DNA of 64,000 nucleotides from Halicephalobus mephisto (lineage: Eukaryota; Nematoda; Chromadorea; Rhabditida; Panagrolaimidae). Shown in pieces: positions 19,525 to 60,437 of the stretch. Location: positions 1 to 64,000 of the forward strand of contig SWDT01000154.1 in assembly GCA_009193035.1 (NCBI GenBank), read 5' to 3'. The notes below the pieces were generated by a model. It searched no databases and had not been told where the DNA came from. It saw only the letters and a program-made list of their open reading frames with translations. The stretch's first letter is position 1, and every line of letters starts with the position of its first letter. Position numbers and translations under genes: made by a program.

Positions 19525-19597
19525 CGACCACGGCAGGAGTCGAACCTACAATCTTCCGCTCCGTAGGCGGACGCGTTGACCATTGCGCCACGCGGCC
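19525..19597 (-). tRNA. tRNA-Arg (ACG), copy 1
   Basis: The reverse strand folds as a 73-nt cloverleaf: acceptor GGCCGCG/CGTGGTC, D-arm around GCGCAATGGTCAACGC, anticodon stem TCCGC/GCGGA with loop CTACGGA (anticodon ACG, read as Arg after inosine editing), and T-arm GTAGG/CCTGC with loop TTCGACT (B box GGTTCGACTCC). A run of T follows on the transcribed strand (terminator). No CCA is encoded, as usual in eukaryotes. No intron. Confidence 0.93.
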
Positions 19598-23019: not shown

Positions 23020-26000
23020 ATGATCGACAAAGATCCTTCAAAACAAGAAAATACCGAAAAGTTACTTTCGAAAGATTTACCAACTCTGATTGAACTTCGT
23101 CAGCTGATAGAATTAAGAGGAAAAGAAGGATTAAACAAGGTCAGTTATTTCTCACAAGGCTAGATTAAAATTTCCAAAATCCTCCAGAATCCATTAAAAA
23201 TTTTAGAATCTACTAGAAATTTTAAAAATTAACATGGATTCAGGAATTTTAGAGGATTTTTGGAAATTCCAGAAGTTCGTGTCAAGATAATTTCGTAGTG
23301 ATTTGGGATTTTTGCAGATTAATTCGGAATTTGGAGGCATCAGTGGACTCTGCACAAAACTACATACTGATCCTAATCTGGGTCTCCTCGATGATATCGA
23401 TGTATTGGAAAGAAAACGGATATTCGGCAAAAATGAAATCCCGATGAGTCCTCCGAAATCCTTTATTCAACTTGTCTGGGAAGCTACCAAGAACTTTACT
23501 CTTTTGTGTTTACTAGTTCCTGCTGTTGTTTCATGGATTTGTTCGATTTGGACATCATTATATCATTCGACTGTGAATGATGATGATGATGAACAATTAC
23601 TCGATTGGGTTGAATGTAGAGCTCTTTTGTTCGCCGCTATTGTTGTCGTCCTACTCACTGCTGTCAATAATTACATGAAGCAAAATCAGTTTCAAGAACT
23701 TCAAGTCAAAACCCAAACTGAAAACAAGTTTTCCGTTCTCCGTGGAGGCGAATCTGTTCGGATTCTGGCAAACGAACTGGTTGTTGGTGACATAATTGAA
23801 ATCAAGCACGGTGACCTCCTGCCAGCTAATGGTGTTCTTACTCAATCCAGTGACTTGACAGTCGATGAGTCGTCTTTGACAGGTGGATCGAGCCTTGCTG
23901 AAAAGTCAGAAAATCACGATCCGATGTTGTTCTCGGGAACTCACGTCATGGAAGGCAATGGTCGGATGGTTGTTACTGCTGTCGGCGTTAATTCCCAAGC
24001 TGGTGTTATGGCACTTCTAGGAGCTATGAAAACTGATAAAAACAAAAGTAAATTTTGAATTTCATATTACAAGAAATGAGTTTCTATTGAAAGAAAATCA
24101 AAACTTTTACTTATGAAAAAAATTATTAAATTTTGTTTTTAGTTTTAGAAAATAATATCTTTAGAAAATGATACCTCAAATCCAGAAGAACCATTGACGA
24201 AAGAACAGGTTGTTCTTCGAGCCAAAATCCGTCGTTTACTTGTCAAGGTTGGATATATCAGTTTTTTCGTCGGCGTCTGTACTACTTTGATCCTCTCTGC
24301 GAGATTCATCATCCATTTCTATTATATTGAAGAAATTCCATTTTCCTTGAATGATATACAGTACTTTATCAATTTTATCATTATCGGATTTACTGTGTTA
24401 CTTTCGGCGATTCCACAACCATTGCCTTTGGCAGTCATTTTCTCCTTGGCTTACTGTGCGAGAAAAGTATGTTTATTCGTAATTTAATTACTGATTACGA
24501 GCATTCCAGATGATGAAAGATAACAATTTAGTTAGACACCTAGATGCATGTGAAACCATGGGAAGTGCAACGACTATCTGCTGCGACAAAACCGGGACAT
24601 TGACTACCAACAGAATGACAGTTGTGCAAAGTTTCATCAACGGTGAATATTAATAATTATTTTTTAATTGTGAGATGTGAGTATTCCAGAGAAATTCTAC
24701 CGAGATTCAACTCCAAAATTCGAGGAACTTGATCGACGAACTGGTCAACTTCTGATTGAGGGCATTTCTGTCAACAGTAGTTACGCTTCTCAAGTCCTCG
24801 ACTCTGCAGTTCCTGAACAGCAAAGACAACAGGCTAGAAATTTGTAAAAATCTTCGCAGACCTATTAAGTGGGGAGTTTCAGATAGGAAACAAGACGGAA
24901 TGTGCTCTTCTTGGGTTTGTACTGGACTTGGGGAGGAGTTATGAAGACATTAGGGAAGAGATCAAAGAAACGGATTTGGTGAAGGTCCACCCCTTCAACT
25001 CGATGAAGAAATCCATGATGACCGTAATCCACCTCCCACATAACGCTGGATATCGCGTCTATGTCAAAGGAGCTGCGGACATGGTTCTGTCTCGTTGCAA
25101 GTACATCCTCGGAAGAAACAGGGAGATTCTTGTCTTCGATGCAAACAAACTGACTGAACTAAAGGATAATATCCTTAAACCGATGGCTTCTGATGGATTG
25201 AGAACGATTGGATTTGCTTACAAGGATTACGTCTTCAGAAATGCTGCTCCAAACGAAGCACTAATCTCGAGTGAACCGGACTGGGGGAATGAGGGAGATA
25301 TTCGAGAAGGGATGACGGCTGTTGCCATTGCTGGAATCCAGGACCCTGTTCGTCCAGAAGCCCCTGAAGCCATTGCTAAATGCCAGAGAGCTGGAATCAC
25401 TGTCAGAATGGTGACTGGAGACGACATTAACACCGCTCGATCTATCGCCGCTGCTTGTGGTATTCTGAAGCCTGAAGACGACTTCCTTGTCTTGGAAGGG
25501 AAGGACTTCAACGCCAGAATCCGTGATTCCAACGGACAAGTGAACCAAGATAAACTCGACGACATCTGGCCGAAGCTCCGAGTGCTTGCCCGAGCCGAGC
25601 CGTCTGACAAATATGTCCTTGTGAAAGGAATCATCGATTCTAAAACCACCAAGAATCGAGAAGTCGTAGCTGTCCTTGGTGATGGAATTAACGACGCCCT
25701 GGCGCTGAAGAAAGCCGACGTCGGAGTCACTATGAGTACTTCCAGTAGTGATGCTGCTAAAGAAGCTTCAGACATTATTCTTACTGATAACAACTTTACT
25801 TGCATCGTGAAAGCTGTCATGTGGGGAAGGAATCTTCATGACTCTATCGCCAAATGGCTGCAATTCCAACTCACTCTGAACGTTGTCGTCGTCTTTGTTG
25901 CAGTTTCTGGTGCTTGTGTGATTCAGGACACGCCGTTGAAGGTGAGAAAGAAATTCCCATATTATACAATCGGAAATTATTTGACTTTCAGACCGTACAA

Positions 26001-26665
26001 ATGCTTTGGGTGAACCTCTTCATGAGCAGTTTTGCTACTCTCGGGCTGGCCGCAGAAGTACCTTCTGAAGATCTCCTTAAAAGGAAACCTTATGGACGTA
26101 CTAGTTCGATTATATCTCGAACTATGGTCAAAAATATCCTTGGACATGCTATTTATCAGTTAGCTATTCTGTTTCCCCTTATATTTGAAGGTGAAAGATT
26201 CTTCGGAATTGATAGTGGAAGATGGGCACCTCTTCATTCTCCCCCTAGCGAGCACTTTACGATCGTTTTTAACGCCTTTGTAATGATGACTCTCTTCAAC
26301 GAAGTCAACGCTAGAATGATCCACGACGAGAGGAATATTTTCCAGGTTTGAATCCACTTTCGTATCTGTCTAAATTGAAAACCTGCCTTCAGGGACTCTG
26401 TTCGAATCCGATTTTCTGCTGCATCTGGATTACAACCATGATTCTACAGTTTCTGATCGTTCAGTACGGTGGTATTTGGTTCTCCACAACCAGTTTGACT
26501 CTCAGACAATGGCTTTGGTGTGTTGTCTTCGGAGTCGGATCTCTCCTTTGGGGACAAGTACGGTTTTCTTATTTCATTTATTATTATTATTATTATGTTT
26601 AGATTTTGGCCACTATCCCGAGTTGTTTGTCCAAGAATGAAGTCAACTACATAAGCGAAGTTTAA
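23020..26665 (+). CDS. PMCA-type P2B ATPase, divergent at ion-binding and catalytic sites
   Basis: Exons 23020-23139, 23318-24047, 24165-24466, 24510-24642, 24690-24832, 24883-25941, 25992-26345, 26393-26557, 26603-26665; 1022 aa. Order: N-terminal cytosolic segment ([12 protein letters not shown]), TM1-2, A domain, TM3-4, phosphorylation site [12 protein letters not shown] domain ([11 protein letters not shown]), hinge GDGIND, TM5-10 ending at WGQILATIPS. PMCAs export Ca2+ across the plasma membrane. Striking departures from the family: A-domain TGES is TGGS; TM4 PEGLP is PQPLP; TM6 WVNLIMDT is WVNLFMSS. The protein ends right after TM10, without the C-terminal calmodulin-binding tail. Intron 5 needs a GC donor (CAG|GCTAGA, 50 nt). 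The frame is otherwise intact, so it may be a specialised or inactive pump. Confidence 0.88.
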
Positions 26666-26993
26666 GCTGTTGATCGTACCATGAGTGAAGAAGATATCGC
26701 TTTTGAAATTGAGAATTGTATTAAAGACAATTTTGAATTGAGTAATTAATTGTACTCAGTAAATGTTGATGTTTACCGAAAGTCCACCTCAAAAATAAAA
26801 ATTACTACGAAATTAAAACGAATTTGAAAAACTTTTGTTTTTATTTTTTTGTGATTGTTTCCTCATAAAAGTTTTCAGTATTTGAGGTATTTTCTGAAAT
26901 TTTTCTGAATTTTATAAACTTAAATTTTCTCTAGACATTTCTGAACACGAATATAAATAACTTTTTGAGGCTGTTGAGACAGAAACTACACTA

Positions 26994-27440
26994 CATAACT
27001 AGACCGCCTCGGGGCCCAAAGTTGTTTCGACATTTCGTTGCGAGAGGATCCTAATTTTAAACATTAATAAAATTATTAAGAGTTTCTTTGGCATTTATTA
27101 TTTTAAAAACAATATTCATGACCTAAACGAGCTTTTAGCATAGGTGCTTTCATCAATTCACAAGAAAATTTCGGACTAAATCCTGCTTGAAGTCAACATA
27201 CACTTTTCACCATTCACAGCTCCAGAATCCGTAAACAGTTAAAAGTCGAACCGTTCATATATCAATAATTTCGAAGTAAATTGCATAAAATAAGAACTTT
27301 CTTACTTTTTTAATATGTCGGTCTTTCAATTAAACACAAAAAAAATCGCTAAAATTATCAAAAAATTTGCTTTAAAAAAACTAAAATTTTTTTTCGTAAC
27401 GAAATGTCGAAACAACTTTGGATCCCGCTGTGTACTATAG
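26994..27440. mobile_element. TIR element (MITE) downstream of the P-ATPase
   Basis: Left arm 27013-27044 (CCCAAAGTTGTTTCGACATT...) and right arm 27394-27425 (complement) match at about 30 positions. Outer sequence on both sides (CTACACTACATA... / ...TGTACTATAG) extends the inverted similarity weakly. The interior is AT-rich without coding. Exact ends and target duplication are not resolved. Confidence 0.62.
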
Positions 27441-27744
27441 AGAAAGCACCTGAAGCGATAGCCTGAATATCAGGGAGCACGGGATACTGTAGGATATGAG
27501 TGAGACTCTTGGTTGTACCGTTTTAAAATTACATAAAATCTGCGCCTTATTGTTCTACTAAAACTCATTATACTGTTGGTTGAAATAAAATTTCAAAATA
27601 GCCAAAACGAGCAGAAAATATTCGGGGAACAAATTACACCAAATTTTATACTTTATTTAATTCTTAGGGTGTCTTCTCGTCAATGTTTTAAAAAATGAAA
27701 GTGATCAGGACAGTTCCCAATTTCTCCGGAAGGACAAAAAGTCT

Positions 27745-27817
27745 CGACCACGGCAGGAGTCGAACCTACAATCTTCCGCTCCGTAGGCGGACGCGTTGAC
27801 CATTGCGCCACGCGGCC
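27745..27817 (-). tRNA. tRNA-Arg (ACG), copy 2
   Basis: Identical over all 73 nt to copy 1. About 100 bp of upstream flank (plus-strand right side, TGGGGCAGTTCCTGATTTTT onward) is also conserved with copy 1, so the gene was duplicated with its 5' region. A CTTTTTG terminator follows on the minus strand. Confidence 0.93.
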
Positions 27818-28435
27818 TGGGGCAGTTCCTGATTTTTGGATTTAAAAACTTTGTTTTCTGACAAGATTTTCTTGAGATAATAAAAAATAATTTGTTTTTT
27901 TTTTAAATTGTCAATCAATTACTGACGGTTTCCTTGTTTTATTTGTGTGCTTTCTCCAAAACATCAAATCCTAGATAAAAAATACAGAAAAAACTTGTAT
28001 CAGCACTGAAAAACATCTTAATGTCGACAAAAATGAAGTTTGAATGTTCGAAGCGAATATGCACTCTCTGCGAAGTTGTTAAAAATCAAACTCTCAGTCA
28101 TTTTACGTAAATTTATAGTTTTTTATTTAACTCTAGTGTGAAATTTGAGGTATTGTTAGAATTGAAAAAATATATAAAATGTATAAAATGAATGAAACTC
28201 GTGGATTTCGGAACTGGAATCAGAATTGAAAATCGACATTAAAAATCAAAAATCTTGTATCCTCAGAATTTGAACACTAATCACCAACATTTACTTCAAA
28301 TCGGAAATTCACACACTATATTACACTATTCTTGATGTTTTCTGTTCGATTCTAAAAATATTTTTACGTTTAGGCTTCAAAAAATACACCTACTTATAAT
28401 ATTCCTTATTTTCTTCCAGGAAATGAAAAAAATCT

Positions 28436-28508
28436 CGACCACGGCAGGAGTCGAACCTACAATCTTCCGCTCCGTAGGCGGACGCGTTGACCATTGCGCC
28501 ACGCGGCC
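28436..28508 (-). tRNA. tRNA-Arg (ACG), copy 3
   Basis: Identical 73-nt tRNA in the same orientation. The conserved flank is shorter and more diverged than between copies 1 and 2. A run of T follows the 3' end. The spacers 27818-28435 and 28509-29069 show no gene. Confidence 0.93.
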
Positions 28509-29069
28509 TGGGGCAGTCTCTGATTTTTGCATTTAAAAAGCTTGCTTTCTGACAAGGTTTTTTTTGAGATCATAAAAAACCACTGCCCAGTTTTTGAGCC
28601 AGTCAGTCATTCTTTCATGATTTCTTCTCTCCAAATGTCCATTTTCTTAGACCAGAAAGGAAGATAAAATACAAGAACACCTCTGTGTCAACACTGAGAA
28701 CTACTTTGATATATGATGTAAATCAATATTGAAATGTTCAAGATATTCATCCGTTGCTTCTATGAAGTTGTTAAAACTGAAATTAACTTGTATAAAATCT
28801 CACAATTACTCAAAATTCCTGAGTTTGGAAGAAAACGTATTTTTCGTTTAAAGTAAAACATAAAGTTCGATGGTCTTTCTGGATGACTTAATTTTTTCGG
28901 TCATACTAGTCATACATTCTCATGTTATCAGTTACAACTAGTTTATCGATAATTTCCAAATACTCAAAAGGCTATTGAAGAACTAGTCACTCTTATTCTG
29001 TGCGATTCGTTGTTGTTTGTTTTTTAAATTTCCATTTTATTTCTTGCGAAAATTCATTCAAATTCGTAA

Positions 29070-31552
29070 ATGTCGCTAGCGGTGGGCATACGGATCTTCA
29101 CCGACAATGGCATCGGAATTCAAACTTACGATCTTCAAACAAAGGAGCTGAAAGGTGAACGGGCAGCTTGCACAAACCTCCGTGAATGTGTCGACGAAGT
29201 TGTAAAGAAATACGGTCAAAGAATTGGGAAAATCGTCATACGTGATGCTGACGAAAAAGATACCCAAGAGGAGTTTAAAAATTACAATAACCTTGTCTAC
29301 ATAGAAACACAAGAAGAAAGAAAACTTTTCTCCATAGTCCAGCCCATAAAATTCACAAAAGGTGATTGGATTCTAATGATAATTTCCGATTATATCGTAC
29401 TATGTCGTTGTGCAGGTGTTGACAAACACAGGAAAATTGAATACGAAATCGAGGAATTTAGATGGTTCGGTCGTCTTTATAAGGATGATCTTCCATATGT
29501 TCTTAGTGTTTTGGACAAGAAAAAACAAGACCTCCATCTTATTTGCGAACACAAAATTCAAGTAATTGATACAGAAGGATTCCAGAGCGTCACCAAAGTA
29601 GCGTTCAATGTACTTGCAAGGGCACGAGCGTTCCTAGGAGACGAGGTTTACTTTATTGAAATACCAATGAAACACAGTCAGAAAGGGAAAATTGACATCG
29701 TGGATGATTGTGGTGTAATTTATTTTCCGAAACTAGTGGGAGAATACGAATCTAGAAAAGACATTGTAGGAATCGACCTCGGATCTACCAGGTGCGTCAT
29801 GGGTGTCTCCAGAACTAACCAAATCCAAGTGATCGATTTGGATAATTCATCTCCTGGAGATCTCTGGACAGAATCTGTTGTTTCTTTTGAAGCAGACCAA
29901 CCCTATATCGGTAAAACAGCTATAAGGAGATTCAGAACACATCCCGATGCTGTTATATTCGACTGGAAAGTGATGTGCAACGAGAAGTACAGATACTGGG
30001 GAAATATGCACGACATAATTCCTTTCAAGTTCAACCTAAAAGACGACAAAAAACCATTTTTCCAACTGAACACATCTCAAGGGATCAAAAACTTCAATAT
30101 GACAGATATGAACAAAATTTTCTTGGAGAAAATGAGAGACCGAACTGTGGAGTACCAGGAACAAAAAGGAAAAAAAGTGAAGGCAGTCATCACTGTACCT
30201 CAGTATTTCCAATTATGTGAACAAGCATATACAATCGAGAACGTCATAGAATCAGCGAACATGGCAGACATTGAGGTCATTGACATCATCGAGGAGACTC
30301 ATGCTGATCTGCTTTATTATTTGTCCAATAGAAATTATTCTAAATACGTCGAGGAAGGAAACACCATTGCTATTCTGGACATTGGTGGAGGAACTGGGCT
30401 TGGTCGTGTTTACGAAATTTACAATCATAACGGGAAAAAACTGGGCTTAATAAAAGATATTATTGAATGCAATTTCTCAGGTAGAGCCTTCGATCACAAA
30501 ATTATGAAAGGTATTTGTGATGTTTTAAAGGAACAGTATAATGTGGACTTAGAGAAGAAAGTAAAGAATGGAGTGGATAAAGGATTCGATAAATATATGA
30601 AGCTGTCAAGTGGTGATGTAGACGATAATTCAACAGAAGTTTCAAAACAAAAAGAACGCGAACAACATTCAAAAATATTTTTAAATCTCTTGGAAAAAAC
30701 GAGGAAAATTAAACATACCCTTTCCTTCGTCGAAGAATATGAGTAAGATTTTTATCGTTTTAATCGTAATTGAATACAAGTTATAGTGTTGATCTATCTA
30801 TATTGTCTCGCGAAATAGAGGCATTTCATACGTTCACGAGGAATTGGTTAGAGAACTTTCTTCATTTCGAAGTTGATTGTTATTCACTGAGTACTCTTGT
30901 TGATCGATCACGCAATCTACCTTTACCGAATCTAGAAATGTCGAACACAATATTGTTATGTGGTAAAATGGTCAGACCTTACTTTTATAAGTTGCTATCG
31001 ATGGAAAAAACCTCTAATTATCAACCTAAAGTAGATACAGTATTCTTGGCAGGAGGAACTTGCAGAATACCGTTTATTAAAAAAAAAATCGAAGAATTAT
31101 TCCCAGGTGCTGAGATTGTTATAGATGGAGAACTGGAGATCATCACTGCTACTGGAGCCGCTGTTCATGCTTTACAAGTCCTCAGTGGAGAAGTTCAGCC
31201 TTATGTGAATGTCAGCAAGTACAATACGGTACTTGGTAAAAAGGAAGAAGAGCAGCAGAAACAACAAGAGTCTTGTGTTCGCTCTGGTAAATGTGATACA
31301 GTACTTGGTAATAAAGAAGAAATTTTGCACAAACAAGAAGAACTTTGTGTTGATACTGACGAAAATAATACAGTATCTGCTGGACAACAAGAGCAGCAGA
31401 AACAAGAAAACACTTACATACGCAATGGTAAATGCGATACGGTACTTACTGGAAAAGAAGAAGAACAACGGAAAGAGTCTCATAATGACAATGACAAAAG
31501 TAGTTCAGAAATTGTTCAAGAAAAAGAAAAAAGTAAAAAACTGTTATCCTAA
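29070..31552 (+). CDS. Hsp70-like ATPase with novel N-terminal region and C-terminal repeats
   Basis: Exons 29070-30742 and 30781-31552 (38-nt intron); 814 aa. Residues 1-230 match nothing I recognise. From about 233 an Hsp70-type nucleotide-binding domain follows: phosphate-1 VGIDLGSTRCVMGV, FDWK (Lys equivalent to Hsc70 Lys71), VITVPQYF and IIEETHADLLYY, phosphate-2 AILDIGGGTG, FSGRAFDHKIM, and adenosine motif VDTVFLAGGTCRIPFIK near 641-657. Key ATPase residues are retained. The Hsp70 linker and substrate-binding domain are absent. Instead the protein ends in about four ~25-residue acidic/Gln-rich repeats (KxxTVLGxKEEExxKQ...) and a charged tail. The N-terminal region might be a degenerate duplicate of the same fold (inference). 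It is probably a cytosolic, lineage-specific paralogue. Confidence 0.8.
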
Positions 31553-32494
31553 TCAAAAATCCCCACAATTCTGTAAACAAACAACAATATATTTCAAATT
31601 TACATTACACTTTTATTTTAAAATATATTTTTAAGTTTAGTTTTTCATATAGCCAAATAAACTACATTTCGAAATATCCATTGCCAGACAATCCTATTTT
31701 TGCCGAACTTTTTCTCTTTATCTGTCTCGCCGCGAATAGAAAAAAAACGTGACTTTAGAAAGACTGGTCTGTTTTTTCTTCATTGATTTCACAATAATTA
31801 ATCTACTCCATGAGAATTCGTCATTGTTGATTGCCTCCTCCTTTATTTCTGATCCATTTTACAAGTTCGCAACGAAAAAGTTTCGGCTTTATGTGAAGAT
31901 CAACTTATACAACGAGATTCTCGCTGAAAAAAAAGAAAAAGAGAACGAGAAATATTTGATTCAAGTTACTGAACTAACGTAGGTTAATTTTGCTCAGTGT
32001 ATTTGGATTATCATTCATTAATTAGGTGAAAAAATGCATTAAACAGAATTGTCAATTTTTTGAAATCTTCGATTTTCGGATTAGTTCGAAATCGACAGCT
32101 TTGGTACTGAATCATAAATTTACGATGATCAACGTTACACAAGTTGTCAACAAAAAGTAAAAGTTTCTATAAATGAGCATAAAATTATCTAATGTCGTTT
32201 TCGGTTCTCCAAAATTCAAAACGCAGTCAAATATCCACTTTTTAGATTTTCTGAAAGGTCTTATTTTCGAATACAGCGGAACCTCCTTAAATTTACCTTT
32301 TATAAACACAACTCCTCTGTAAAAGCAAAATTTCTCCCGTCTCTTCGGTTGCATCTAAGAAGGTTTCATTTTATTATGTTTATTCCGATTGCTGAAAATT
32401 GATCAGATTTGGGTTAGAAAAGAACTATTTATCAACTTGATAGCAGGAAGATATACGGTATTTAAAGATGTTTGAAGTCTAGTTATTTGAATAC
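31553..32494. other. Intergenic, weak ORFs only
   Basis: A plus-strand frame around 31790-31980 (LLIASSFISDPFYK, then a lysine/glutamate-rich helix) ends near a GTAGGT donor but lacks an ATG and a clear next exon. A minus-strand frame at 32112-32354 (MQPKRREKFCFYRG) is similarly unsupported. Nothing else was recognised. Confidence 0.3.
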
Positions 32495-40159: not shown

Positions 40160-41189
40160 ATGGACGTCAAGAAGCAAGATCACGAGGCCGAGAGCTTGAA
40201 GAAGCTCGCCTTCTTTGGAGTGGCAGTCTCCACCGTTGCTACTCTCACAGCCATCATTGCTGTCCCCATGTTGTACAACTACATGCAACATGTCCAATCC
40301 AGTCTTCAGGAAGAAGTTGACTTCTGCCGTCATCGTGCCTCCGGACTCTGGGAAGAGTACCTCAAGATCGAACGTCTCGCCGGAACCCAAGGTCGTCTGA
40401 AGCGTGCTGCTTACCACAGAGGATCTGGAATCGTTGGAAGAAGACCTCTTGCTCGTGGGGCTGCTTCCTACAGTAACGATGCTTCCGGTTACGGTGGAGC
40501 TCAAGAAGCCGCCGTTAGTGGAGGAGACGTCGCTGTTGGTGGTGGATCTTGCTGCTCTTGCGGAGTTGGAGAAGCTGGACCTCCCGGACCTCCTGGACCA
40601 GATGGTCGTGACGGAAACGACGGACAACCTGGAAATGATGGACAACCCGGACCAGATGGACCTGCTGGATCCCAACCCACAGCTGCCGATTTCTGCTTCG
40701 ACTGTCCTCCTGGACCTCCTGGACCCCCTGGAAACGTTGGACCCAAAGGACCCAACGGAAACCCTGGTGCTCCTGGAATGTCCCCTCCCCCATCTCTTCC
40801 TGGACCCCCTGGACCTCCCGGACCCCCTGGACCTGCTGGACAGCCTGGATTCCCCGGAGAAGCCGGACCCCCTGGATCCCCCGGTATCGTCAACGACATC
40901 CCCGGCCAAGCTGGACCTCCCGGACCCCCTGGACCTCCCGGACAACCCGGTCCTCTCGGACCACCCGGAGGAAACGGAAACCCCGGCTATCCCGGACCCC
41001 AAGGACCCCCCGGAGACATGGGCAACCCCGGAGCCCCTGGTCAACCCGGAACCCCCGGAGATCGCGGACCGGACGGAGAACCTGGAGACAAAGGAGGTTG
41101 CGATGTAAGTTTCCCCCCTAAAAATACAGTAATCCTAATTTTTACAATTTCAGCACTGCCCACCACCTCGTACCGCTCCTGGATACTAA
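40160..41189 (+). CDS. Cuticle collagen 1
   Basis: Exons 40160-41104 and 41154-41189; 326 aa. The ATG follows an acceptor-like TTTAG directly. The N-terminus has the nematode collagen membrane/signal-anchor segment ([17 protein letters not shown]), then EEVDFCRH and a furin-like site RLKR. A cysteine cluster (GGGSCCSCG) precedes a Gly-X-Y block with a short break around FCFDCPPG. The C-terminus [11 protein letters not shown] is spliced on from a short exon. Such collagens are secreted by the hypodermis, cleaved at the RxxR site, cross-linked through cysteines and built into the cuticle. It shares gene structure and tail with collagen 2 at 45139 and is its close paralogue. Confidence 0.93.
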
Positions 41190-41855
41190 ACATCATCACG
41201 AAAATTTCTCAGGTCTCAACTTTACAATCCTTATTCTTTCTCTTTGTCTTATATGTACAGAGCGAAAAGTTGACTGTTCCGTAGATTAGATTTTGATGAA
41301 GGTTGTGAATAAAAGGATTCACTCAAGTTGTCGGGAATCTGGGGAAGGGAAACAGTAACACCAGCTCCTTGAAGAATTCGGAGATTTTAAAAATCGGGAT
41401 TTTTTTGGGGAATAATTGGGGTTTTTGACTAGTGTACTGTAAACAGCAGAGAAACAAGTGACTTTATCTTCTGTCGTGCTGGCCGGGACTAGATGGCTCA
41501 GTATTTTTACAAAGTTTACAAATTACAAATTACAATTTTTGAGGACTTGATAATAATTAGTAGTAACTATTGCGACCACCAATTCCGAAGTTCTTTTAAA
41601 TGCCAAAAAACCCTTGTGGTCACGACACGAAAATAACTCTCCGAAATGATACTGTCGTTCGTCGGATGTTGTGTTCTTGGTGTTTCTTTTCACATGTACT
41701 AAGTCCTCTTCCTTTGAAGTTGTAGAGTAAGGAGTTAATATATAGTAACGATGGGCCACAACAATAACTTAAAGACAACTCCAAACTGAAATTCAAATAT
41801 TCTCTTTGCGCTTTTTCTCCTTCGTTGTGGGTCTTTGTTTAGTCAGATCTTCCAC
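41190..41855. other. Intergenic after collagen 1
   Basis: A minus frame at 41523-41759 (MAHRYYILTPYSTTSKEED) has no splice, promoter or family support. Nothing else seen. Confidence 0.35.
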
Positions 41856-44612: not shown

Positions 44613-45138
44613 TGAAGAAAATTTTGGGTAATTTGGAATCCATTTTTTAAGTGAATTATTTTCTGAAATGAGATAATCAAATAAAATTCCAAAAGCCGGT
44701 GTGTCACGTATTGAGAAAAAAAGTTTTATTTTTTTTGTTCGATTTTCGGTAATTGAAATACTAGTTTTAAAAATGGATTTTATCGATTTTAAATATTCTT
44801 TATTAAATATACTTTTAAATTAAATTCAAATATTTAATTAATTATCGAAAATTTAAATTTTTTATTTTACAAAGTTGTTTAAAAATAAAATTTAAAAATT
44901 TTTAATATTTATTTTTATAAACATATTTAATTTTATTTACAATGATTTTACGAACATTAATTTTAAATAAAAAATTATTTCGATTTTCATGTCAAAATTT
45001 TCGGTTTTATTTAAATATTTATTTTTAAATTTTTTCAAAGTGGAATTTCAATTTTAAACTTTTGTCGTTTTTTGACTTTCTTCGAGACTGTCCTTTATCG
45101 TTTGATCTGGATCCGTTCCAGGGATTTAAACTACCAGA

Positions 45139-46938
45139 ATGGAGTCAGATCAACGAGACGTCAAGTCCCTTCTTGCTGAAGCGAATTCCACAAAGAGACT
45201 AGCTTTCTTCGGAATCCTCGTCTCTACGGTGGCTACCATAACCGCGGCCGTCTGTATCCCTATGCTCTACAGTTATGTCCAATACGTCCAGTCTTCCTTG
45301 CAAGAAGAACTGGATTTCTGTGTCCATCAAACCGGCAATCTCTACAATGAATTTTCCAAGTATGAATCTCTGAAGGGATTTTCGGGAAGAGTTCAGAAGA
45401 GAGAAATCCAGAAATCCCCCTTCTACTTCCAAGTGAGACCCTTGTCTACTGCTTCTTATTCCAACATCAGAAGAGCTCCTCAAGCTGGAGGTTATGCTTC
45501 TGCCCAGGCCGCTGGCTATGGAGCTTCCGGAATCAACAGTGAGCCCGTTGTGACTGCTGCTGTTGGTGGTGGATCTTGTTGTTCTTGCGGAGTTGGAGAG
45601 GCTGGACCTCCAGGTCCTCCTGGTCCTGATGGAAAAGACGGAAATGACGGTCAAGCAGGAACTGACGGACAAGCCGGACCAGATGCTCCTCAGGATAAAA
45701 CTATGACTGCAGACGACTTCTGCTTCGATTGTCCTCCTGGTCCTGCCGGACCTCCCGGACTCGCTGGACCCAAAGGAGAACCCGGTCAGCCTGGAGCCAA
45801 TGGAAAAGACGGAGCCGCTGGAAATCCCGGACCTGCCGGAGAACCTGGACTTCCGGGTATCGCTGGACCACCTGGATCTGCTGGAGAACCCGGAACTCCC
45901 GGTGCTCCTGGAGCTATCAACGATGTCCCCGGAACTGCTGGACCACCTGGTCCTCCAGGTCCTCCCGGACCCCCTGGACCAGATGGACTTGCTGGCCCAC
46001 CAGCTGGAGCCGGAGTTCCCGGACCTCAAGGACCTCCTGGAGACGCCGGAAAGCCAGGACCCGACGGAGCCCCCGGAGAGAATGGTCAACCAGGAGAACT
46101 CGGAGCCCAAGGAGATTCTGGTGAGTTCAGATTAAATATAAAAGAAACAAATCCATCAGGATAACATGCGACACGAATAATATAATCCCAGATACAATTA
46201 TTACAGAAGAATTACATGAATTAAGAAGTGTTTTAACAATTTCCAAACTAACATGAATCTTCTGTGATCCATATATCTGTGGATAGAGTATTATCTTTTG
46301 CAAAAAAATCATAATTTCCTTGGAGTGTAAAACGTAACGAATACGTAACACTTCGTTCCGAAAGATCCCATAACTTTTATCCATCACTTCGTTACGAAAG
46401 ATCTCATAAATTTTATATAACTTTCAATGTTACTTCTTTCAAATGCTACAATTTTCCATAAGTATTGATTCTCCGTGCAAACCGTAACCGTTATGCTGTA
46501 CTCTTTGTCAAAGTTACCAATTGCCATGAAAATTACACGTAACAGTGATGTTTGCATTCGTTACTGAAACAAAAGTTACGGTTTTTCGTGAAACAAATAC
46601 AACCATCACTACTATGTGGTTTGTATGGAGAATCAATACTTATGGAAAATCGTAGCATTTGAAAGAAGTAACATTGAACGTTATATAAAATTTATAAGAT
46701 CTTTCGTAACTAAGTGATGGATAAAAGTCATGGGATCTTTCGTAACGAAGTGTTACATATTCGTTACATTTTACACTCCAAGGAAATTATGATTCTTGTA
46801 TATATAAACTTCATCCACCCCAATATTTCGTCATTGAAATTAATTTCTCTTTATTTTCAAAATCTCAAAAAAATTAATTCCATATTTTCAGGTTCCTGCA
46901 ATCACTGCCCCCCACCACGTACTGCTCCTGGTTACTAG
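45139..46938 (+). CDS. Cuticle collagen 2
   Basis: Exons 45139-46120 and 46892-46938; 342 aa. Same architecture as collagen 1: membrane-proximal [25 protein letters not shown], a basic processing site near VQKR, a GGGSCCSCG cluster, Gly-X-Y blocks interrupted at [10 protein letters not shown] and at a PPAGAG imperfection, and a short last exon encoding [13 protein letters not shown]. The donor is TCTG|GTGAGT; the acceptor is ATTTTCAG. Unlike collagen 1 (49-nt intron), the intron is 771 nt because it holds a foldback element. It converges on PGAP1 with 48 bp between stop codons. Confidence 0.93.
46307..46794. mobile_element. Large foldback element inside the collagen 2 intron
   Basis: The left arm (46307-46475) and right arm (about 46625-46794) are near-perfect inverted copies (ATAATTTCCTTGGAGTGTAA; CATTACTTCTTTCAAATGCT-type blocks), separated by ~150 bp that itself contains GTAACG repeats. 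The two mirrored ORFs beginning MMDKS on opposite strands are by-products of the palindrome. Insertion into the same intron position that is 49 nt in collagen 1 explains the intron length. Confidence 0.85.
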
Positions 46939-57562: not shown

Positions 57563-60437
57563 ATGGAAAATCGGTTTTGTATTGTCTGCGGAGATACCAG
57601 AGAAGTAAAAAAACACTACGGAGTAGATTGTTGTGAGTTCTTAATTGTCATATATTATTTATATAAGAATATAAATATAGAAAAAATAAAAAAATAAAAT
57701 TTAAATAAAAAATAAAAAAATTTAATTTTAAATAAAAAATAAAAAAATTTTAATTTTAAATAAAAAATAAAAATGTAAAAATTTTAATTTTAAATAAAAA
57801 TATAAAAATAAAAAAAATTCACTACTGTACATTTTTAAAATAAAAATATTTATAATTATATATTTTTGGTGTTTTTATTATTTTTAATAATTATATTTAT
57901 AATTATATATTTTTAGATTATTTTTATAATTTAATTATTTTTAATAATTATATATTATTTTTATAAAAATACTTATAATTATACAATTTTAATAATTATG
58001 TATATTTTTTAAATGCCTACAATTTTAGTTTTAAAAATATTTTTATATTACTTTTTAAACATGTTTATTATTATTTTTAAAGTACTTTTACTAATTTTCC
58101 AGGTTATGGCTGTAAAGCTTTCTTCAGAAGGACAATCAATGACGGGAAAAAATACACTTGTGCTAATGAAGGAAATTGTTCGATTGACAAAAGTGAGTTT
58201 TTCATTTATCAAAAAATAAATGTTTTTTTATCGAAAACCGACTTTGTTTACGATATTCACTTTAGTACTTTATCGAGAATTTTTCAAAGCAATTACAATA
58301 TAGGATTTATAACATTGTATACTCAAGCTTGGACTCCTTTATTGTTCGCTTGCGTTCGCGCATCTCAGCCTTTATGGTCATCTTCAGGAGATTCTTCCTC
58401 TTACTAGAATCATCTTCAGGGAATTCTTCCTCTTACTAGGATCATCTTCAAAGAATTCTTCTCTTACTAGAATCATCTTTTCGGTCCTTCTGACCTTGTT
58501 TCTTTCTTTGATGAGTGCATCTTAATCATTTGTAGTCAGATTGCGGCTGGCAAGACCTGGATCTGCAGTCTTCGGTCGGGAATCGAACCCGAGTCTTGTA
58601 ACTTTGCATTCACGTATACTACCATTGTACTACTGAAGTTACGACATTCAATCTACTGTATAATTCTAAAACTTTATAAAAATATGAAAAAAAATTAAAT
58701 TTCACAATTTTCAGTCTTAAGTGGAAAATTTAAAAATTCGTTTTGAAACAATTTTTACGAAATTTAAAATTTTTAATAATATAATTTATAATCTACCAGA
58801 TATTTTTAAAATTCTGTGAAATTATTTAAAAATTAAATTTCACAATTTTCAGTCTTAAGTGGAAAGTTTTTAATTTTTATTATATTTGTTTTGCAGCATC
58901 CAGAAACCGCTGTCGGTCTTGCAGATTCCAAAAATGCCTTTCTGTCGGGATGAACGAGAGCAATTTGAGGGATTTCAAGTCCAAGAACCCCGTAGATCCC
59001 TCGCCGATCCCCTCCACGTCGGACCAAACAAACGGGAAAATCTCACCTCCGTGGTCCCACACCACTCCGGTCAGGGTCTCTACCCTCTCCCGGAGTGGAG
59101 ATGTGTCTGGATTGCTGGATTCTTTCCATTTGAGGTCTTCAGAATCCACCAACTTACTTGGATTCTTGACGGCCATGACCAGGACTTGTCTGGATACCTA
59201 CGACCCTAACTTCGTGAACTTGACGAAAGATGACTGGCAAAAGTTGGAGAAAAATTTCGGAAGAACAATATCCTTGGCTGAGGGTCTCAGAAGTCCAGAA
59301 CTAGTCTGTCCAAGAACGAAATGGGACTGGTCTTGCTCGAGAGTAGCCGAACCTTCCGACTTCTCCTTCATGTGGTACAGGTTCTTCGTGGTTGTGGCGG
59401 ACTGGGCGAACAGCATTCCTCAATTCAGGATGCTTCCCAAAGACGACCAATTGCAGTTGATAAAATTGAATTTTGTAAATATTTCAATGACATTTTTGAT
59501 GTATTTTCTGTTGAAGAATCCAGTTCTGAAGGACAGCATCCCCATGGGAAACGGATCATACGTGTCCAAAATCGAGAAACAATCGATGTATGTTTTAAAA
59601 ATTCCCCCAAAATTAAAATTAAAATTAAAATTAAAATTAAAATTAAAATTAAAATTAAAATTAAAATTAAAATTAAAATTAAAATTAAAATTAAAATTAA
59701 AATTAAAATTAAAATTAAAATTTATGATGGCAAAAATCGGATGATATTTTCTGCAAGTTTTGTATTTTTTTAGAATCGACATATAAGTGGATTATTATTA
59801 TTTTTGACTTTTAGATATTTACTTTTATGGCATTTCTAAAAAGATCTATCTCCCAAAAACAGATAATTTTTAAGTTTTTTTAAATTTAAAATTTTTTAAA
59901 AATTAAAAAAATTTGTTTTTTAATTTTCGATTATTAATAATTAAAAAATTTTCATAGAAAAATAGATTTTTTTTTTGAATTTCTAGGTAAAATACTTTTA
60001 TTTTTTTATAATAGTATAGGTTTTCGAATTTTAGTTTGAACAAGTTAGTTCGGGCTTCCCTCGATGCCTACGGCACTCATCTCTTCATCCCTATGGCGGA
60101 ACTCGACGCGGATTCCACAGAACTCTCTCTCTTGGCGGCGATACTGCTCTTCCAGTACCACGAAAACCTTTCTTCAGAAGGCCATGTTCTATGTAAAGAT
60201 TACATAGATAAATTGTTTGATGCACTTTTTGAGTACCAAAATCTCAGATTCCTCCAGAAGTCAGCTGTGGAGAAAAGCAGAAGACAATCCAAGCTTCTGA
60301 TGACCGTTGCCAGGATCTCCCAGATCTGGGCGATGGAAAGCGATATCCACCTGATGTTATCCACATTCGACGAAATGAACATTGACGGAATTCCAAAACA
60401 ATTATTATTCTGTGATTTTGAATGTAAAAAAAAATAA
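57563..60437 (+). CDS. Nuclear hormone receptor A (nematode supplementary NHR)
   Basis: Exons 57563-57632, 58103-58192, 58897-59587, 60035-60437; 417 aa. The C4 DNA-binding domain is split over exons 1-3: FCIVCGDTREVKKHYGVDCC, YGCKAFFRR (P-box region, Ala where CKG/CKAF vary), the Cys pair in YTCANEGNCSIDK, then RCRSCRFQKCLSVGM. A linker is followed by the ligand-binding domain with the helix 3-5 signature (FMWYRFFVVVADWA, DQLQLIKLNF) and C-terminal helices (SDIHLMLSTFDEMNIDGIPK). It is a ligand-regulated transcription factor of the large nematode HNF4-derived group. Its end (FECKKK) reads into an A-rich tract and differs from its paralogue, so the tail may be eroded. Intron 2 holds a SINE-like element, intron 3 a hexamer repeat. 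Confidence 0.88.
58378..58482 (+). repeat. ~32-bp tandem repeat, three copies, in NHR-A intron 2
   Basis: Unit TCATCTTCAGGGAATTCTTC followed by CTCTTACTAGAA, in three slightly different copies plus a partial. It adjoins the tRNA-like sequence and may be the tail of that element. Confidence 0.8.
58569..58639 (-). repeat. Degenerate tRNA-like sequence, likely tRNA-derived SINE head
   Basis: The minus strand has an A-box-like AGTACAATGGTAGTA, an exact B box GGTTCGATTCC within a 5-bp T-stem (TCGGG/CCCGA), and a mostly paired acceptor stem (ACTTCAG/CCGAAGA, two mismatches). The anticodon arm is imperfect. On the transcribed strand a further ~190 bp follows, including the 32-bp repeats. It is more likely a pol III-driven SINE or tRNA pseudogene than a working tRNA. 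Confidence 0.55.
59609..59721 (+). repeat. Hexanucleotide microsatellite (AAAATT)n in NHR-A intron 3
   Basis: About 19 perfect copies. It starts about 20 bp after the exon 3 donor. Because the unit is six bases and lacks stop codons in several frames, it creates artificial KLKLKL, KIKIKI and NFNFNF frames that are not genes. Confidence 0.95.

Follow-up and report, generated by a model that had tools for sequence, protein, structure and literature searches.

In SERCA, mutation of the glutamate of the TGES motif blocks dephosphorylation of the E2P form. One review speaks of the A domain, with TGES, as a built-in phosphatase, and gives the N domain the part of a built-in kinase (PMC10654040). 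In PMCA2, the only Ca2+ site has been reported to consist of the backbones of V407, V408 and V410 together with the side chains of E412, N869 and D873, with D873 pairing with Q837, and neuroplastin was found to bind M10, the M8-M9 loop and the M7-M8 loop (PMC12488499). Neuroplastin was reported there to be without effect on PMCA2 transport, so that loss of a partner need not affect pumping itself. The PMCA-like gene described here lies in a window of 64,000 nucleotides (the whole stretch of Halicephalobus mephisto DNA that was analysed) and has the same domain order as the C183-type nematode PMCAs (C183 from the same genome, P0002 from Halicephalobus sp. NKZ332, and P0017 and P0021 from C. elegans), with which it shares the N-domain, DKTGTLT, GDGxND and TM7-TM10; however, these pumps have TGES, PEGLP and WVNLIMDT, whereas the PMCA-like gene has none of the three. 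They also possess a long C-terminal tail, recognized in C183 by alignment and in P0002, P0017 and P0021 by PF12424, which we take to be the PMCA tail domain family, and this tail is absent from the PMCA-like gene.

The gene comprises nine exons with an open P2B-type (PMCA) frame of 1022 amino acids (Table 1). The coordinates and exons given in a preliminary description of this DNA proved right, and a local spliced alignment of an independent homologue, P0003, over 23083-26623 recovered identical internal splice sites and showed neither a stop nor a frameshift. Membership of P2B by descent is indicated by homology to PMCAs along the whole length; the best PDB matches are PMCA1 and PMCA2 chains, and six Pfam P-type/HAD families exceed their cut-off. 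Local identity to the 120 listed homologues (best 120 of 7948) is 48-71%, and no stop or frameshift of the kind expected of a pseudogene occurs over the 1022 codons. The frame ends 20 amino acids past TM10, and the calmodulin-binding, autoinhibitory tail is missing: a search of 26501-32000 in its three forward frames for seven exact tail strings, a crude test, gave no match. The absence of the tail is not decisive alone, since several listed homologues (P0048, P0049, P0055 and P0066 among them) also lack PF12424.

Table 1. Positions, in the window, of the parts of the PMCA-like gene and of neighbouring features.
Feature	Position	Strand	Content
PMCA-like gene	23020-26665	+	nine exons, 1022-aa frame
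Exon 1	23020-23139	+	start codon, N-terminus, aa 1-40; 3' splice junction also by P0003 alignment
Exon 2	23318-24047	+	TM1-TM2, A-domain; TGGS replaces TGES, aa 228-231 (E230G)
Exon 3	24165-24466	+	linker, TM3-TM4; IPQPLP, aa 366-371, replaces VPEGLP (E368Q, G369P)
Exon 4	24510-24642	+	first P-domain segment; DKTGTLT intact (Asp410)
Exon 5	24690-24832	+	N-domain start; GC donor at end
Intron 5	24833-24882	+	GC-AG, CAG/GCTAGA
Exon 6	24883-25941	+	N-domain, second P-domain segment, GDGIND, rebuilt hinge VTMSTSSSD, TM5
Exon 7	25992-26345	+	TM6 with WVNLFMSS, aa 835-842 (D841S, T842S), TM7-TM8
Exon 8	26393-26557	+	TM9-TM10, close to paralogue C183
Exon 9	26603-26665	+	last 20 codons and stop; without calmodulin-binding tail (tail alignment)
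tRNA-Arg(ACG) gene	19525-19597	-	
tRNA-Arg(ACG) gene	27745-27817	-	
tRNA-Arg(ACG) gene	28436-28508	-	
Divergent Hsp70-like gene	29070-31552	+	PF00012 matches in two ORFs
Collagen-like ORF	40160-41284	+	Collagen and Col_cuticle_N matches
Second collagen-like ORF	45130-46164	+	similar by eye
Long repeat	about 59550-59740	+	KLKLKL-coding, at end of nuclear-receptor-like ORF

The three altered motifs, first noticed in the preliminary description, are indeed present, and the residues lost in them (E230, E368 and D841) are kept in 120/120 of the listed homologues (best 120 of 7948) and, by alignment of the paralogues, in each of the three further PMCA genes identified in this genome (C183, C78 and C79). 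The A-domain Glu is likewise kept throughout the N-terminal fragments listed (best 120 of 143), of which 110 read TGES, eight TGET, one TGEA and one TDES. No relative with the variant motifs appears in the best-120 lists for the whole protein, exon 6 or the N-terminal fragments. Isolated sequencing errors were rejected as an explanation, because codons 369, 741, 841 and 842 each differ from C183 by at least two bases. Matched by motif to the PMCA2 numbering, the equivalents of the Ca2+ site are L, S and I for the backbone positions, Q, N and S for the side chains, and Q for the residue pairing with the TM6 Asp; thus, the TM6 Asn is kept (N837), while the TM4 Glu and TM6 Asp are lost (Q368 and S841). 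The P-domain hinge is rebuilt too, with TGDN changed to TGDD and the stretch following VTGDGTND now VTMSTSSSD. Among exon-6 fragments (best 120 of 3163), GDGTND is present in 118 and falls in a gap in two, and a tally of the hinge over 117 of them, from at least 14 kinds, gave FAMG in 114 and VTMS in none. In addition, K938M lies just past TM8, near a partner-binding loop, a point that tells against the pseudo-pump reading given below.

The residue check also agreed with the earlier claim that DKTGTLT and GDGxND are retained: D410, K411, T412, K538, D630, D656, D743, N746 and D747 are all kept, and DKTGT, TGD, GDGxND and the KGA Lys are all present. Through these residues the protein could bind nucleotide and might also be phosphorylated. 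AlphaFold2 models of single exons (mean pLDDT 72.1 for exon 6 and 73.8 for exon 2) were set aside as evidence on mechanism, since pLDDT is below 50 both in the hinge, within exon 6 residues 279-319, and in the TGGS loop, around exon 2 residues 186-190.

The extent of change was gauged over 430 near-invariant columns (at least 97% conserved among the 120 listed homologues), of which the PMCA-like gene has changed 81 (one of them a gap), C79 33, C78 two and C183 none; the most divergent of the 120 homologues has changed 11. Because the homologues themselves define the columns and the paralogues do not, the three paralogues are a fair control. C79, the best of these controls, with 53-60% identity to the other three proteins and an overall divergence about equal to that of the PMCA-like gene, retains every hallmark residue tested. 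Counted by domain over 429 columns in window numbering, the changes are 2/12 in the N-terminus, 10/25 in TM1-2, 14/62 in the A domain, 17/39 in TM3-4, 2/34 in the first P segment, 6/44 in the N domain, 15/115 in the second P segment, 12/46 in TM5-6 and 2/52 in TM7-10. The TM1-6 helices (39/110) are thus changed far more often than the first P segment, N domain and TM7-10 together (10/130; Fisher p = 1e-7), in groups picked after seeing the data that leave the A domain and second P segment, which are changed too, in neither, and the same test on C79 (12/110 vs 10/130, p = 0.50) showed no bias. Relative branch lengths, each taken against the normal rate of the domain in eight chosen outgroups, are 3.8 for TM1-2, 1.9 for the A domain, 2.1 for TM3-4 and 4.6 for TM5-6, and 0.89 for the N-terminus, 0.58 for the first P segment, 0.55 for the N domain, 1.1 for the second P segment and 0.70 for TM7-10.

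Identity to C183 at four-fold sites increases along the gene, though unevenly, from 0.30 at its 5' end to 0.84 at its 3' end. Of the five introns whose length allowed alignment, two show weak similarity to C183. These observations suggest that the 3' part of the gene may have been rejuvenated by conversion from C183; the conservation of TM7-10 may therefore be partly a product of gene conversion. The comparison of the N domain plus first P segment (8/78) with TM3-4 (17/39; Fisher p = 8e-5, again with groups picked after seeing the data) is free of this problem, as the two have similar dS (1.35 and 1.43). For TM7-10, scaling from TM5-6 by dS, itself uncertain, predicts 10.5 changes, and two were seen (Poisson p = 0.002).

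The likeliest source of the PMCA-like gene is the C183 locus in its own genome. This origin is suggested by five exon lengths common to the two genes (133, 143, 1059, 354 and 165; the 5' exons differ), by the identity of the proteins (68%) and by a lower dS, rather than by the trees: in the full-length tree the gene sits on a long branch away from C183, the N-terminal half-tree leaves its placement without resolution (0.13), and the C-terminal half-tree joins it to C183, P0002 and P0003 with weak support (0.51). The paralogues were sought in a genome of 59.9 Mb in 331 contigs, and their gene models are approximate, with first and last exons uncertain in all three and two GC donors (exons of 76 and 91 nt) in that of C183. 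P0002, at 91% identity, is the closest to C183 among the sequences compared; the sole NKZ332 protein among the matches listed, it is the counterpart of C183. At the 69 sites where C183 and P0002 differ, the PMCA-like gene agrees with C183 at 26 and with P0002 at 20, which points to a duplication about as old as, or older than, the divergence of the two species, and a copy would then be expected in NKZ332. None was found in the best-120 lists; the NKZ332 draft assembly is given as only 47 Mb (PMC6909384).

Other features of the C183 lineage were observed as well. The N-domain of C183 (locus L039) is 0.78 identical to that of C78, the C-terminal half-tree holds a clade of C183, P0002 and P0003 with C. 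elegans P0085 (support 0.97), and the tail of P0085 appears C78-like by eye; an old gene conversion between PMCA paralogues of this lineage is possible.

The comparison with the paralogues makes a pseudo-pump the best reading of the PMCA-like gene, and we lean, with moderate confidence, towards a lineage-specific P2B duplicate, most likely from C183, that has turned into one. The preliminary description had seen Ca2+-site and dephosphorylation residues lost within an intact frame and had proposed a pseudo-pump acting as a regulator; the loss and the intact frame hold, and the regulator role is one that we only infer. On the simplest account, a C183-type pump would have been duplicated and the copy kept as a protein and not as a pump. 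The sequence itself shows that the gene has lost two of three side-chain Ca2+ ligands, the TGES Glu, the hinge sequence and the calmodulin-binding tail and has kept the phospho-Asp, the ATP-site residues tested, TM7-TM10 and the open frame. Such a protein would presumably fold, reach the membrane like a PMCA and be able to bind ATP, and it would most likely be unable to transport Ca2+. Normal Ca2+ binding would be gone and, if phosphorylated, the protein would be stuck in a phospho-form; no cycling is expected, because there is neither a normal Ca2+ site nor the TGES Glu. Less surely, it might serve as a scaffold or competitor that is itself unable to transport and that contacts the partners of PMCAs through TM7-TM10, free from calmodulin control. 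TM7-TM10 resemble those of C183 in the alignment, and this likeness, together with the neuroplastin contacts of PMCA2, makes a partner-binding or decoy role plausible.

A bolder reading can be entertained only tentatively: that of a selected, expressed paralogue with its ATP-driven kinase half kept and its phosphatase Glu and Ca2+ site lost, acting as a phospho-locked or ATP-gated scaffold that would tune Ca2+ export by the real pumps. Just as tentatively, it would set a scaffold PMCA paralogue in a heat- and low-oxygen-tolerant subsurface nematode.

The main rival to the pseudo-pump reading is early decay, in which a duplicated PMCA was constrained for a while and now drifts with no stop acquired yet, and which we consider unlikely. 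Between a maintained and a decaying copy the preliminary description had looked to dN/dS, and the outcome, over 965 gap-free columns, was divided. Pairwise with C183, dN is 0.212, dS 1.28 and omega 0.166, with omega = 1 rejected (2 delta lnL 353); the C183-C78 pair gave 0.027. A four-gene branch model put omega at 0.51 on the branch of the PMCA-like gene, where omega = 1 was not rejected (lnL -10907.56 vs -10908.22, delta lnL 0.66), as early decay would have it; the outgroups of this model are saturated at synonymous sites, and 0.23 was obtained only in a three-omega model in which C183 has its own omega. Amino-acid constraint on this branch thus appears weak or unproven. By domain, omega against C183 is 0.15 in the A domain, 0.25 in TM3-4, 0.16 in the first P segment plus N domain, 0.11 in the second P segment, 0.20 in TM5-6 and 0.22 in TM7-10; the last is among the higher values, and the sharp contrast between core and rest is not repeated.

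Neutral simulation from C183 (300 runs) bears on the same question. The PMCA-like gene departs from C183 = C78 at 171 sites, for which about 262 neutral substitutions were needed; these produced a mean of 10.3 stops and a minimum of two, and the gene has none, which argues for a maintained pseudo-pump. The first stop came at a median of 20 substitutions and by 80 in 95% of runs; a short final neutral phase of up to about 80 substitutions could nevertheless have passed without a stop. Loss of the calmodulin-binding tail, the lack of a listed relative with the same changes and the GC donor of intron 5 (the other seven introns have GT donors) would also fit decay, in that retention of this intron gives a stop at aa 481. 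The GC donor is, however, usable in principle, in-frame GT donors lie upstream at 24770, 24794 and 24809 with the frame open for each, and all eight introns can be spliced in frame. Moreover, none of the nine catalytic and ATP-site residues checked has been replaced, although the transport core has changed.

That the protein is still an active, ATP-driven pump, its transport core remodelled for an altered substrate or mechanism, is quite improbable, even though the remodelling centres on the TM1-TM6 helices, no change is seen in the nucleotide and phosphorylation motifs checked, and TM5 retains its Gln and Asn and TM6 its Asn. The A-domain Glu, present in 240/240 of the listed homologues and fragments compared, is now Gly, the sites in TM4 and TM6 no longer have their acidic residues and the hinge is rebuilt as well; the changed ion that the preliminary description had also offered is accordingly the less likely option. 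That the gene is an assembly or sequencing artefact or a chimeric model, as one non-GT donor and the single assembly seen might hint, is hardly credible given 80 residue changes at near-invariant columns spread along an open frame on one contig, multi-base codon differences at key sites and internal splice sites recovered independently.

As for the surroundings, the divergent Hsp70-like gene lies 2.4 kb downstream, and two of the three tRNA-Arg(ACG) genes are about 690 bp apart. Hsp70 is a large family in this genome, with at least 74 matches counted exon by exon, and 57 of the 59 AIG1 matches found exceed the cut-off; expanded AIG1 (84 domains) and Hsp70 (126 domains) have been reported for H. 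mephisto (PMC6872716). The word ATPase is absent from the main text of that genome paper.

A gene of this kind, whose ATP-site residues are spared although the calmodulin tail, the phosphatase Glu and the ion site have gone, would amount to a separation-of-function experiment made by nature, both on calcium pumps and on the pump-independent roles debated for P-type ATPases. Even as a gene in early decay, it shows which parts of a duplicated pump are the first to go. Nothing relevant on dead or pseudoenzyme members among P-type pumps was found in the open-access literature. A precedent among nematode P-type ATPases is CATP-1, a Na,K-ATPase-like protein of C. elegans, for which Ruaud and Bessereau (2007, as cited in PMC11631496) argued a pump-independent role and for which an effect dependent on loss of pump activity is also reported (PMC11631496). 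CATP-1, however, has predicted pump activity, whereas in the PMCA-like gene the loss appears to be built into the sequence. The P4 ATPases, which belong to a different subfamily and are likened to the PMCA-like gene by description only, have their catalytic motifs present. Scaffold functions independent of flippase activity have been described for them in a review (PMC10654040).
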